DNA from: Thermotoga caldifontis AZM44c09
GTDB lineage: Bacteria; Thermotogota; Thermotogae; Thermotogales; DSM-5069
Assembly: GCF_000828655.1 (NCBI RefSeq)
Contig: NZ_AP014509.1
Coordinates: forward strand, 620,001 to 684,000
Direction: 5' to 3'
Length of the DNA stretch: 64,000 nt
The translations under genes were made by a program, and so were the position numbers. A model generated the notes under the pieces. The model did not search any database. It saw only the letters and a program-made list of their open reading frames with translations, and had not been told where the DNA came from. The number at the start of each line of letters is the position of its first letter. The stretch's first letter is position 1. Below, piece after piece: positions 30,236 through 49,653 of the stretch.

Positions 30236-30991
30236 TTGGAACAGTTCGTGCGAAAGCTCAAGGGTATGATGAAGCTTCCAGATTTCGATTCGCTCGGTAA
30301 AGTGATGTGTGTACAACCGCATCCGGACGATGCCGACATTTCCATGGGTGGCACGGTCGCCAAACTCTCGAAAAAAGGTGTCAGGGTCTACTACGTAACG
30401 GTGACGGACGGCTCGGCGGGGACGCTCGACGAATCGCTGATGGGTGAAAGACTTGCTCAGATCAGAAAAAAGGAACAAGAAAAGGCTGCGGAAATACTGG
30501 GTGTGCACGAACTGATCTGGCTCGGTTTCGAAGACCTTGGAGATTATTCTGTCGAACAGGTGCGCGTGAAACTGGTTGAAGTTTTGAGAAAAGTTGAACC
30601 AGACGTGGTCTTCACGGTCGATCCCTTCACACCTTACGAGGTGCACCCGGATCACATCAAGTGCGGCATGTCCACTTCGCAGGCGGTGAGTCTGTACAGA
30701 CTGCCGAAATTACTTCCAGGCACTTCGAAGCACGCAGTGGCTGCGATTTCCTTCTTCAACACGGCGTTTCCGAACACTTTTTATCCCATCGATCAGGAAC
30801 ATCTGAACAAGAAGTTCCAGGCCATTTCACAGCACAAAAGTCAGTTCGATGAGAAATCTCTGCAGACTTTGTTCTTCTATCTGACCGAGAAGAGCAAGGC
30901 GTACTCACCGGTGGAGGGTCAGCTGGTAGAACCTTTCAAAACTCTCCCGCCTGTAGCACTCCATGTGATCAGCGAGGCGTACAGGCTTTGA
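30236..30991 (+). CDS. PIG-L/LmbE-family deacetylase
   Basis: 251 residues from TTG 30236, nine bases after AGGGGA; a GTG at 30227 overlapping the MFS stop is the alternative but sits against the ribosome site. The zinc motif QPHPDDADISMGG (about 25-37) and the distal EVHPDH motif supply the Asp and His ligands of the family. Members remove N-acetyl groups from GlcNAc-type sugars. With the upstream MFS transporter it may import and deacetylate an amino-sugar compound; this is inference from adjacency. Confidence 0.9.
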   Translation: MEQFVRKLKGMMKLPDFDSLGKVMCVQPHPDDADISMGGTVAKLSKKGVRVYYVTVTDGSAGTLDESLMGERLAQIRKKEQEKAAEILGVHELIWLGFEDLGDYSVEQVRVKLVEVLRKVEPDVVFTVDPFTPYEVHPDHIKCGMSTSQAVSLYRLPKLLPGTSKHAVAAISFFNTAFPNTFYPIDQEHLNKKFQAISQHKSQFDEKSLQTLFFYLTEKSKAYSPVEGQLVEPFKTLPPVALHVISEAYRL

Positions 30992-31026
30992 ACTTTTCGA
31001 GCGTTCTTCAGTCCATAGAGATGGAG

Positions 31027-31032
31027 TATAAT
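31027..31032 (+). promoter_or_regulatory. -10 box of the tmRNA gene
   Basis: A perfect TATAAT ends 11 bases before the mature tmRNA 5' end, implying a short 5' leader removed by RNase P. The -35 region (TTCTTC at 31004) is poor. Confidence 0.7.
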
Positions 31033-31043
31033 AGATAACTGCT

Positions 31044-31401
31044 GGGGGCGAACGGGTTCGACGGGTGTGAGATCCCCCAGGAAGCGAGCCGAGGTCTCCA
31101 CCTCCTCGTAAAAAAGGTGGAACAAAAAAGAAGTGCCAACTACGAAATGGCTCTCGCTGCCTAATAGAGAATAGGCAGCCGTCCCCCGCGAGGTCTGACC
31201 GGTGCCCGCGGACGGGGCGTGACCCAGCCGGTCCACCGCTGGAAGGTTTGCCCCGACCTTTCGGCGGGTTTCACAGGGGCTGTGACTTGCGAAGGCCTGC
31301 CTGTGGGCTTTTGCAAGTCGAGAACTGAACACAGGCTGCGCTCGGAGAAGCCTGGGGGTGCTCACATTCGGACGGGGGTTCGATTCCCCCCGCCTCCACC
31401 A
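31044..31401 (+). ncRNA. ssrA: Transfer-messenger RNA (tmRNA)
   Basis: The 5' end GGGGGCGAACGGGTTCGACG and the 3' end GGGTTCGATTCCCCCCGCCTC plus ACCA are diagnostic; GGGGGCG pairs with CGCCTCC as the acceptor stem, and CCA is encoded. The tag reading frame at 31135-31167 encodes ANYEMALAA followed by TAA TAG; the resume codon is GCC. GC-rich pseudoknot segments follow the tag. The RNA tags and rescues stalled ribosomes. Its 3' end is only three bases from the stop of the convergent methyltransferase gene, leaving no room for a separate terminator. Confidence 0.97.
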
Positions 31402-31404
31402 GAA

Positions 31405-42865: not shown

Positions 42866-42885
42866 GATCGACGGAGGAACAGAAC

Positions 42886-43809
42886 GTGAACGAGAGGAGT
42901 AAGCAGTTTTCAAGAGCGGCCTGGATCGGTGTCTGGGCGAATGGAATACTCTCCGCTGCAAAAGTGATGGCTGGACTGCTGTTCAACAGTTCGGCCGTAC
43001 TGGCAGACGGCATCGACACAGGCACGGACGTGTTCACCTCCTTAGTGACACTGGTTTCTGCAAAGATATCCAGCAAGCCACCGGACAAAACGCATCCTTA
43101 CGGTCACGAAAGGGCCGAAGCCATAGCGGCGAAGGTGGTTTCGTTCGTGGTGTTCTACGCCGGAGTGAGCCTGCTGATCAATTCCATCAGGCGAATAGTC
43201 CTGCTCGAACATGCGGAGATCCAGGGCGTGATACCGCTGTTTGTGACGGTCGTTTCGATGGGCGTGAAAACCTGGCTGTTTCTGTACAAGTACAGCGTCG
43301 GAAAAAAGTTGAACAGTTCGGCGCTCATCGCAGACGCGCTGAACATGAGAAACGATATCCTGATCTCGAGCACGGTCCTCTTCGGTGTGATCCTGAACAA
43401 GTTCGGGATCTGGTGGATGGACAGCGTTGCGGCGCTCGTGGTTTCTATCATGATCGTCAGGACGGCGTTCAGCATCTTCCGTGAGACGAGTTACGAACTC
43501 ATGGACGGCATGCAGGATCTGGAGATCTACGAACAGATTTTCGAAGCGGTCAGATCGGTGGAGAACGTGAAAAACCCGCACAAAGTTCGGGTGAGGCAGG
43601 TAGGTTACAAGTACTTCGTTGACATAGACATCGAGGTTGACCCGAATCTCACCGTCCAGAGAGGTCACGAGCTCGCCACACGGGTCAAAGAAGCCATAAT
43701 CGCTAAAAACGATAGGATCGCGGATGTTTTGGTGCACGTTGAACCTGCCGGCAACATCGAGCAGGAACCGTTCGGCCTGGACCAGGAGAAACTGAATTCC
43801 AGCAGGTGA
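42886..43809 (+). CDS. Cation diffusion facilitator (CDF) metal exporter
   Basis: 307 residues, six membrane helices and a C-terminal cytoplasmic domain. Metal-site motifs are ADGIDTGTDVF (helix 2; Asp-Asp positions) and ADALNMRNDIL (helix 5, with the His of the zinc type replaced by Asn), and HPYGHERAEAI is conserved. The N-x-x-x-D arrangement in helix 5 suggests manganese or iron rather than zinc, an inference from CDF subgroup rules. It converges with the ZnuA-like gene two bases away. Confidence 0.92.
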   Translation: MNERSKQFSRAAWIGVWANGILSAAKVMAGLLFNSSAVLADGIDTGTDVFTSLVTLVSAKISSKPPDKTHPYGHERAEAIAAKVVSFVVFYAGVSLLINSIRRIVLLEHAEIQGVIPLFVTVVSMGVKTWLFLYKYSVGKKLNSSALIADALNMRNDILISSTVLFGVILNKFGIWWMDSVAALVVSIMIVRTAFSIFRETSYELMDGMQDLEIYEQIFEAVRSVENVKNPHKVRVRQVGYKYFVDIDIEVDPNLTVQRGHELATRVKEAIIAKNDRIADVLVHVEPAGNIEQEPFGLDQEKLNSSR

Positions 43810-46480: not shown

Positions 46481-46981
46481 TTAGTACTTTCGATCGAGTA
46501 AAAAAGATGTTACACCAAGGCACAGCAAAAACAGTCCCAGCCAGAAACTCTGATTTCTTGGGATGTTCATCTCGCGCAGCACGAAGCTGGTGGTCAGCAA
46601 GCCCCAGCAGAGCAGGAGCGAGGCGATGTTCTTCCTGATCGCGCGTTTGAAAAGATAGTTGAGGGCGTATTCGCTCTTGGTATGACCTGCGGAGAGGAAA
46701 AATATCCTAAGCCTCTTGTCTTCGCTCTCCAGCAGCGTGGACAGCCTGCCGGCGTGGAAAAAGAAAGAAACGGCCAGGAAGATGAGGAGGTCCCGAGCCC
46801 TGTAAACTTCGAAGGAGCTCGTGTAAAGCAGAAGAAGGCCGAGCGTGGTGAGCGTGTTCATGAACGCGAACGGAGAAAGGTTTATGTTTGCAAAACTCAC
46901 GAAACCTATCCACGCCAGCAAGCCAGCAACGATCAATCCGGTGGCGGAGAGGAATAAACCAAGGAGAACCTCGTTCAACAT
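46481..46981 (-). CDS. Hypothetical membrane protein
   Basis: 166 residues with five or six hydrophobic helices (LGLFLSATGLIVAGLLAWIG; GLLLLYTSSF; LLIFLAVSFFF; ASLLLCWGLLTTSFVL; SFWLGLFLLCLGVTSFLL) separated by short charged loops. I do not recognise the family. The ATG follows the SPFH stop by one base, so it is the third gene of the NfeD-SPFH operon and may belong to the same membrane assembly. Confidence 0.8.
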   Translation of the reverse strand: MLNEVLLGLFLSATGLIVAGLLAWIGFVSFANINLSPFAFMNTLTTLGLLLLYTSSFEVYRARDLLIFLAVSFFFHAGRLSTLLESEDKRLRIFFLSAGHTKSEYALNYLFKRAIRKNIASLLLCWGLLTTSFVLREMNIPRNQSFWLGLFLLCLGVTSFLLDRKY

Positions 46982-46982
46982 T

Positions 46983-47900
46983 TCAGCGCTTCTCTCCTTC
47001 TTCTGGTTCTTTCTTCAGAGCCTCCACTATACCTGCCAAGCTCGACACGATCGCCGTGGCTTCGATCGGGAGGAATATCTTCGTCGCTTTACCGTTGGCG
47101 ATCTCCTTCAGTGCCTCGAGATATCTTATCGCTATCAGATCGCTGGTTGGCGCACCTTCGTGTATCGCTTTAAAGACGTTCAGTATGGCCTGGGCCTGAC
47201 CTTCCGCTTCGGCTATAAGTTTGTAACGGTTCGCCTCAGCAACTCTCTTTATCGCCTCTGCCTCACCCTCTGCCCTCAGTATCGCTGCGTTTCTCTCGCC
47301 TTCGGCCTTCAAAATCTCCGCCTGCTTGATACCTTCTGCTTCGAGGATCGCGGCCCTCTTGGTTCTTTCCGCCTTCATCTGTTTGCTCATCGCTTCGGTG
47401 ATGTCCTTCGGTGGATCGATCTTCTTGATCTCCACCCTCGTGATTCGAACGCCCCACTTGTCCGTCGCGTCGTCCAGAACGGTCCTCAGTTTCGCGTTGA
47501 TCTTTTCCCTGGAAGTGAGCGTCTGGTCCAGCTCGAGTTCACCTATCACGTTCCTCAGGTTGGTCTGTGCGAGTTTCAGAGTGGCGAACTGGAAGTTGTT
47601 GACGTTGTAGACCACCTTGTACGCGTCGGTTACCTCGTAGTAGATCACGGCGTCAACCGTCACCACGACGTTGTCCTTCGTTATGACCTCCTGCGGCGGA
47701 ACGTCTATGACCATTTCCCTGAGGTCGACCTTGATCATCCTGTCGAAGAACGGTATGATGAAGTGAAGACCAGGTCCAACTTCCCTGTGGAACTTTCCAA
47801 GTCGTTCGATGAGACCTCTCTGGAAAGGCCGCACCACTTTGATTCCGGTCGCAGCGATTATGAACAGCAGAACGATCAGCACTGCAAGGGCTATCATCAT
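46983..47900 (-). CDS. SPFH-domain (stomatin/QmcA-like) membrane protein
   Basis: 305 residues. An N-terminal helix (2-20) anchors the protein. [16 protein letters not shown] begins the SPFH domain (about 22-185), and a long Ala/Glu-rich coiled coil ([20 protein letters not shown] and following) occupies about 195-265. This is the slipin/stomatin form. Its ATG overlaps the NfeD stop (ATGA), the classic NfeD-stomatin pair thought to organise membrane microdomains. Confidence 0.94.
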
Positions 47901-48343
47901 GCTTCACCACCCCTTTCGATTTTTCGCACCACCACGTGGGCACCTTCCACTTTCAGGATCGTCACTTTTTGACCTTCTTCGATCGTCGTGTCGTCCGATT
48001 CGGAGTAAGCCCGCCAGATCTCACCGTTCACCTTGACGAGGCCTTTACCCTGTCTGTTGTCGATGGTTTCCACGACTATCGCTTCTTTTCCTATTATCTC
48101 ATCGATGTGGATTTTTCTTGCTTCAGATTTTACGAGCCTCTTGGCCAGAGGCCTTGTGAGAAGAACGAGGGCTGCGGAGACCCCCATGAAGGTGACCAGC
48201 TGCACTATCGTTCCAGATAGAAAGCTCACACCAGCTGCCGCAAAGGCCCCGAGGGCGAACCAGAAAAAGAAAAATGTTGGTGTGAGGATCTCGGCGACCA
48301 CCAGGACAACCCCGAGGATGAGCCAGAACACGTAAGGTTCCAT
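47897..48343 (-). CDS. NfeD-family membrane protein, short form
   Basis: 148 residues. Membrane helices occupy about 5-75, and a C-terminal OB-fold follows ([32 protein letters not shown]). The ClpP-like protease domain of long NfeD proteins is absent, so this is the NfeD1b type that partners stomatins. First gene of the NfeD-SPFH unit, 12 bases after rnz. Confidence 0.92.
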
Positions 48344-48355
48344 CTTATCACCTCC

Positions 48356-49192
48356 TCACATCGTGAACAGTTCGTTCGGATCAACGTAATAAACCTCGAA
48401 CGGTTCGTTTGAGAGGTTTTTCAGATATTTCTCTATCTTCCCCGAATAACGGGTCGATATGTGGTAGAGAACGAGCTTCTTAACCTTTGCCTCCCTGGCT
48501 ATGGAGAGAACTTCATCCAGAGATGCGTGCGCGTTCATTTTCCTGTCTTCCCTCTTCAGAAATGTACATTCGTGCAGGAGAATTTCCGTTTCGAAGGCGT
48601 CTTCGGGATCTATTCCGTAAGTGTCTCCAGAAATGGTGAGAACTTTCTTCTCGTAAGATTCCGTGATGCCATCTTGGCCAAGTTCCTTAGAAAGTCGGGC
48701 GATCTCGTCTTTCGACAAGTTCTTGTACTCTTCCTTCAACCTTCTTCGAACTTCGATCACGTTGTATCCGAGACTTTGATCGTACTGCGTGTGCCTGACT
48801 CTGAAGGGGACCACGTACCTGATAAAGCTTCCGGCCTGTCTGAGGAAGATCTTCTGTCCCACAGTTACAGGGACGAAGCTCAATTCAAACCTCAGATCGC
48901 CGTTGACCTTCAGGATGAATTGCAACCACTCCTCGACCGCCGTGTTTCCTTTCGGGTAGTATATGATGAGGGGTTTCTCTCTATCACCCATGGAGTTGTT
49001 TCTGGAGTTTATTATCGTCCACAACCCGGATATGTGATCGACGTGACCGTGTGTCAGGAAGATGTACTTTATGGCGTAGATTCTGTTCCCCATAGTCAAA
49101 GAAACGCCTTCACCGGCGTCGAACAAGATCCTCTCTGGCGCGTAATAGATCCATGTCGAATAGAGAGCCTTGGAATATATCTCGAGTATCAG
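48356..49192 (-). CDS. rnz: Ribonuclease Z (tRNA 3'-processing endonuclease), apparent CTG start
   Basis: 278 residues if translation begins at CTG 49192. The zinc motif FLTHGHVDHISGLW, the LLHECTF segment and LYHISTRYSG fit the short Thermotoga type of RNase Z, which cleaves precisely after CCA-containing tRNA ends. The coding sequence extends upstream of the first ATG/GTG/TTG-type codon (TTG 49126): SKALYSTWIYYAPERI there matches the N-terminus I remember of T. maritima RNase Z, and translating from CTG gives the same N-terminal length. That CTG overlaps the rplI stop (CTGA) and has GGGAG nine bases upstream. See findings. Confidence 0.9.
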   Translation of the reverse strand: MILEIYSKALYSTWIYYAPERILFDAGEGVSLTMGNRIYAIKYIFLTHGHVDHISGLWTIINSRNNSMGDREKPLIIYYPKGNTAVEEWLQFILKVNGDLRFELSFVPVTVGQKIFLRQAGSFIRYVVPFRVRHTQYDQSLGYNVIEVRRRLKEEYKNLSKDEIARLSKELGQDGITESYEKKVLTISGDTYGIDPEDAFETEILLHECTFLKREDRKMNAHASLDEVLSIAREAKVKKLVLYHISTRYSGKIEKYLKNLSNEPFEVYYVDPNELFTM

Positions 49193-49653
49193 GCTTGTTC
49201 ACTCCCTCTGCTGGCGACGACCTCAACTTTCACCGTGCCTCTGACGCCTCCAGGAAGCCTCAACTTGACGTCGTACAACCCGACTTCCTTGATAGGTTTT
49301 TCGATTTCGATCCACTTCTTATCGATCTCGGTTCCCGCACTTTCACTCAGCAACTCCGCTATGGCCACGCCTGTGAGCGCCCCGAAGAGCTTACCACCGG
49401 CTCCAGCCTTGACCTCGATCCTGTGAACCTTCCTCTGAAGCTGTCTCAGGATCTCTTCACTCTTTTTTCGAAGCAGATCCTCTTTATGTTCTTTCATCGC
49501 CTTTTCGTTTTCCAACCTTTTGATCTCACCTTCCGTGGCCGGTTTGGCAAGGCCTTTGGGTATCAAATAGTTCCTCGCGTACCCATCGCTCACTTCCTTG
49601 ATCTCGTTGGCTTTCCCAATGTTGGGAACATCCTTGAGGAGTATGACCTTCAC
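49189..49653 (-). CDS. rplI: 50S ribosomal protein L9
   Basis: 154 residues from GTG 49653 (GGGGGAG five bases upstream). VILLKDVPNIGKANEIKEVS and DGYARNYLIPKGLAKPAT are the N-terminal L9 signature; a long helix follows, then the C-terminal RNA-binding domain (FGALTGVAIAELL...IEKPIKEVGLYDVKL). The frame stays open far upstream, but that part lacks a ribosome site and overlaps the opposite genes. The stop overlaps the rnz start. Confidence 0.97.
   Translation of the reverse strand: MKVILLKDVPNIGKANEIKEVSDGYARNYLIPKGLAKPATEGEIKRLENEKAMKEHKEDLLRKKSEEILRQLQRKVHRIEVKAGAGGKLFGALTGVAIAELLSESAGTEIDKKWIEIEKPIKEVGLYDVKLRLPGGVRGTVKVEVVASRGSEQA

Follow-up and report, generated by a model that had tools for sequence, protein, structure and literature searches.

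At which codon does translation of rnz, the gene for RNase Z, begin in the window (the whole 64,000-nucleotide stretch of Thermotoga caldifontis DNA analysed here)? The listing of open reading frames in the window admitted, by default, only ATG, GTG and TTG as starts, and the initial annotation proposed instead that the only plausible start of rnz is a CTG overlapping the stop codon of rplI. CUG is not counted among the normal start codons of bacteria, and gene finders limited to ATG, GTG and TTG cannot place the N-terminus of this gene and would leave RNase Z truncated in most of the family to which the window belongs (f1). The features concerned are as follows.

48356..49192, minus strand: rnz (RNase Z), read from its very probable CTG start; 278 codons plus stop; matches to 1ww1, TIGR02650 and Lactamase_B_2.
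49190..49192, minus strand: CTG, very probable start codon of rnz; CTG in 10 of 11 family genomes and TTG in one; TTG, ATG or GTG in the other 86 Thermotogota.
49199..49201, minus strand: in-frame TGA stop 5' of the CTG, separated from it by two codons.
49202..49206, minus strand: GGGAG, Shine-Dalgarno-like, 9 nt 5' of the CTG; similar elements in relatives.
49189..49653, minus strand: rplI (ribosomal protein L9, 154 aa); GTG start at 49653, TGA at 49191-49189 overlapping the CTG.
49127..49189, minus strand: rnz codons 2-22 (ILEIYSKALYSTWIYYAPERI), lost if the start is TTG 49126; pN/pS 0.045.
49124..49126, minus strand: TTG (codon 23), the nearest canonical start on the 3' side; not accepted as the start of rnz, five different Leu codons occurring in its column.

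The rnz frame is closed on its 5' side by TGA 49201-49199 and ends, on the minus strand, in a stop at 48356. Beyond the 5' TGA it reads ACA AGC CTG (49192-49190) ATA CTC GAG ATA TAT TCC AAG GCT, and this CTG is the sole NTG codon from that TGA to TTG 49126, which is the first in-frame ATG, GTG or TTG on its 3' side. The upstream gene ends in GAA CAA GCC TGA, so that the rplI stop and the rnz CTG share the tetranucleotide CTGA. The stop just before the frame, the overlap with rplI and the GGGAG nine bases upstream were all found as the initial annotation had described them.

Read from the CTG, the protein has 278 residues, five of which precede [F/Y]SKAL. Its best solved relative is the tRNase Z of T. 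maritima (1ww1; E 9.7e-107); chain 1ww1_A (280 aa) also has five residues before [F/Y]SKAL, and its residue 6 pairs with the sixth codon of the window's rnz when the CTG is taken as the first. The window's RNase Z and the T. maritima enzyme (1WW1/2E7Y) belong to the same protein family and have the same N-terminal length, an equality that the initial annotation had asserted and that the 1ww1_A alignment bears out. The translation also matches TIGR02650 (RNase_Z_T_toga; E 5.2e-109) over positions 5-277 of the 277 in the profile, its 363.7 bits falling below the model's cut-off of 507 bits despite the near full-length match, and Lactamase_B_2 (E 4e-11). It contains LTHGHVDHISG, the HxHxDH motif that goes with the metallo-beta-lactamase fold of RNase Z in its short form.

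Translation from TTG 49126, the first canonical start within the frame, would yield a protein of 256 aa and would delete residues common to T. maritima RNase Z. The part so removed, codons 2-22, has a pN/pS of 0.045 at a pS of 0.81 among ten f1 members, versus 0.21 in the rest of the gene, indicating strong selection at the protein level. The TTG itself is not conserved, its column holding five different leucine codons in ten f1 genomes. On the strength of this codon variability and of the protein-level selection upstream, TTG 49126 was discarded as the start of rnz, and we regard its use as highly improbable.

The rnz junction was searched for in 103 Thermotogota genomes, and the N-terminus could be read in 97 of them. 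Two of those left out gave no match (G031, G045), one had the gene ended by the end of a contig (G017), one had it broken by stops (G085) and two gave weak, probably non-orthologous matches (G048, G051); a second copy in one genome (locus L085, beside L040) was excluded from the final count. The codon six before SKAL is NTG in all 97 genomes (TTG in 70, ATG in 16, CTG in 10 and GTG in 1). All ten CTG codons lie in f1, where they occupy the start column in 10 of 11 genomes and three of four genera; the eleventh genome (G002) carries TTG in that column, with an in-frame TGA immediately 5'. Comparison of orthologous rplI-rnz junctions, a check that had been suggested for the CTG, strongly supports it as the start. 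Its column holds CTG or TTG in all 11 f1 genomes.

A comparison with other leucine positions bears on the same column. Among the ten full-length f1 sequences, rnz has 15 columns that are leucine throughout; all 14 of the others vary beyond CTG and TTG, and the start column alone is restricted to these two codons, which is more than chance would give.

When 30 RNase Z proteins were placed on a tree, the f1 sequences formed one clade (support 96/94), with the TTG-bearing G002 nested inside it and adjoining CTG members. Most likely, UUG, the start of rnz in most Thermotogota, changed once to CUG at the base of f1 through a single U-to-C substitution and was regained once, in G002. Since nearly all close relatives share the codon and its place, the CTG appears to be inherited and not a sequencing slip. 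A sequencing or assembly error at a true ATG or TTG would need only one transition to be undone in the case of TTG, the codon that G002 has; CTG is present, however, in ten separate genomes whose independent assemblies contradict an error, and we rejected this explanation as having a negligible likelihood.

The codon that follows the CTG was considered as well. Initiation at the near-cognate AUA 49189 (codon 2), and not at CUG, would be in keeping with ATA at codon 2 in nine of the ten full-length f1 sequences (ATT in G001) and with the apparent AUC or AUA start of infC in f1. It is nevertheless very unlikely, in our judgement: the homologous column of the phylum, one codon before the AUA, never departs from NTG in the 97 genomes, G002 carries TTG at just that place, and two other invariant isoleucine columns of rnz are likewise mostly ATA.

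Starts upstream of the CTG differ between the members of f1. In six of the ten CTG genomes, the window's included, the stretch from the upstream in-frame stop to the CTG contains no ATG, GTG or TTG codon, and hence no canonical start is available at the homologous N-terminus; these are all five of the window's own genus (G000, G003, G004, G005, G006) and G007, and the stop directly adjoins the CTG in G005 and G007. Four genomes (G001, G008, G009 and G010) do have an in-frame GTG, three codons 5' of the CTG and not separated from it by a stop (G001 has an additional in-frame TTG five codons 5'), so that use of CUG is not required in these four. Initiation there could then be at the GTG, with CUG confined to the window's genus and G007, a reading to which we give a real though clearly minor weight. 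Against it, the GTG forms part of a Shine-Dalgarno-like sequence, GGGTGA or AGGTGA; its counterpart in G007 runs into an in-frame TAG, and that in G002 is out of frame. Because it lies inside such a motif, and because of the TAG that follows it in G007, we think that the upstream GTG is not the start in the four genomes. From these sequence comparisons we consider it highly probable that rnz of f1 is translated from a real, lineage-conserved CUG start.

The arrangement with rplI extends well beyond the family. rplI lies directly 5' of rnz in 92 of 97 Thermotogota loci. Of these 92, 58 have the genes no more than 10 nt apart, 82 no more than 30 nt, and 26 have a negative gap. Within f1 the gap is -4 (G000 and G004), 5, 6 or 11 nt across the 11 genomes; the CTGA overlap occurs only in the two genomes named, the rplI stop lying 5-11 nt upstream and in differing frames in the others. 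Conservation of the CTG thus does not depend on the overlap. In genus g13, which we take to be that of T. maritima from its N-terminal sequence MNIIGFSKAL, the junction is a 4-nt overlap of the form ATGA with an ATG start, where the window has CTGA and CTG.

The 4-nt overlap of the two frames in G000 and G004 might also be read as a sign that rnz, lacking a start codon, is expressed as an L9-RNase Z fusion by frameshift or stop readthrough. We rejected this reading, which is barely credible, since the frame relation of the two genes varies within f1: rplI shares the frame of rnz, closed off by a TGA, in G003, G005 and G006, the other gaps in the family being -4, 5 or 11, and two in-frame stops separate the genes in G005. 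Judged by sequence, a sequencing error, a start at TTG 49126 and a frameshift fusion to L9 can all be regarded as effectively excluded. The data support the position of the CTG, its conservation, the coding N-terminus, the absence of any other, canonical start in six of the ten CTG genomes and the closeness of rplI.

The Shine-Dalgarno element of rnz is located in the last codons or the stop of rplI, relatives carrying GGAGTGA, GGGTGA or AGGTGA at a spacing similar to that of GGGAG. Ribosomes ending L9 could thus start rnz. The two genes are spaced as closely (a gap of -4 in the window) as translationally coupled pairs are, and since rplI is the upstream neighbour in 92 of the 97 loci, translational coupling between them is plausible, although the geometry of the junction varies within f1. 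Such coupling would tie tRNA maturation to ribosome synthesis, as the initial annotation supposed.

Starts other than ATG are found in 81 of 97 rnz genes versus 28 of 91 rplI genes (Fisher p 1e-13, not corrected for relatedness). Given this difference, weak initiation looks like a phylum-wide property of rnz, of which CUG in f1 would be the extreme. As to TTG by itself, the junctions (loci L027-L113 included) have it at the start of 70 of 97 rnz genes and, in the same loci, of 11 of 91 rplI genes.

We propose that the CUG of f1 rnz would be decoded by the ordinary initiator fMet-tRNA, with insertion of fMet, on ribosomes positioned there by the Shine-Dalgarno element that the last codons or the stop of rplI provide. 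Ribosomes finishing L9 would feed rnz by translational coupling, and the weak CUG would keep the amount of RNase Z made small compared with L9. When an altered anticodon arm of the initiator tRNA was sought in f1, the arm was standard in 10 of 11 genomes and G001 (71% complete) gave no match, which argues against a general relaxation of start choice by that route. RNA folding revealed no hairpin at the rplI-rnz junction, 199 of 200 shuffled sequences folding at least as well.

A regulatory role for the CUG is hypothetical. We see an even chance that the codon, though genuinely used, has no regulatory meaning and drifted neutrally from UUG to CUG because little RNase Z is needed; one origin of CUG suffices on the RNase Z tree, and rnz starts are mostly weak in the phylum anyway. 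Yet 10 of 11 f1 genomes have kept the CUG although synonymous change is close to saturation (pS 0.81), and such switches are very rare elsewhere: in Belinky et al. 2017 (PMC5622118), 1 of 2,468 reconstructed ancestral UUG starts had switched to CUG. The CUG starts of other bacteria treated in that paper and in PMC11497404 resemble what we propose for rnz in that CUG is read by the initiator tRNA with a first-position mismatch, and they are counted as very rare. PMC11497404 gives CUG initiation complexes in E. coli as less stable than those with AUG, GUG or UUG, and offers this lower stability as a possible cause of the rarity of CUG in bacteria. The switches in PMC5622118 each occurred once, within a triplet of closely related genomes, whereas rnz in f1 has kept CUG across several genera. 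Searches of the open-access literature turned up no description of RNase Z, or of any Thermotogota gene, beginning at CUG.

Another translation-related gene with a conserved start outside the canonical set is infC, which encodes IF3: in E. coli it starts with AUU, which serves IF3 autoregulation, and non-canonical starts of the AUC/AUA kind are known for infC elsewhere. The likeness to rnz has a limit, in that the E. coli infC start is autoregulatory through IF3, whereas there is no indication of any action of RNase Z on initiation. In f1, the conserved N-terminus of infC (G000:C1:691597-692100, outside the window; loci L144-L154) comes without a canonical start, and a Shine-Dalgarno-like GGAGG is followed by ATC or ATA (GGAGGTAGAGATT ATC in G000), which suggests an AUC or AUA start. 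Active selection on the CUG, with rnz and infC forming a small set gated by IF3 and by rplI-derived ribosomes and RNase Z output tracking the balance of ribosomes and initiation factor, would be a more far-reaching account, and we hold it to be unlikely. A housekeeping gene with CUG over several genera, beside relatives with UUG, provides a natural test of whether weak starts are selected or tolerated, and rnz of f1 also offers a case in which to ask if a weak start can be made good by coupling to a ribosomal protein gene 5' of it.

An automatic control of start codons flagged 26 of the 56 aligned open reading frames of the window, rnz among them. Read by eye, most of the other flags came from alignments of two genomes that were too alike, from neighbouring or antisense reading frames, or from starts lying shortly past the computed onset. 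The control was therefore restricted to the 20 reading frames aligned in at least four genomes, among which rnz alone, with the other flags read by eye, is a genuine gene lacking a canonical start. The remaining three flagged frames were seen to have staggered canonical starts (42868-43809 and 46481-47014) or to be an antisense open reading frame (48009-48335). Elsewhere in the window, 30919-31404 on the minus strand holds a conserved open reading frame with WWRRGESNPRPNVSTP; it is probably not a gene, frames of this type usually being spurious calls over tRNA genes.
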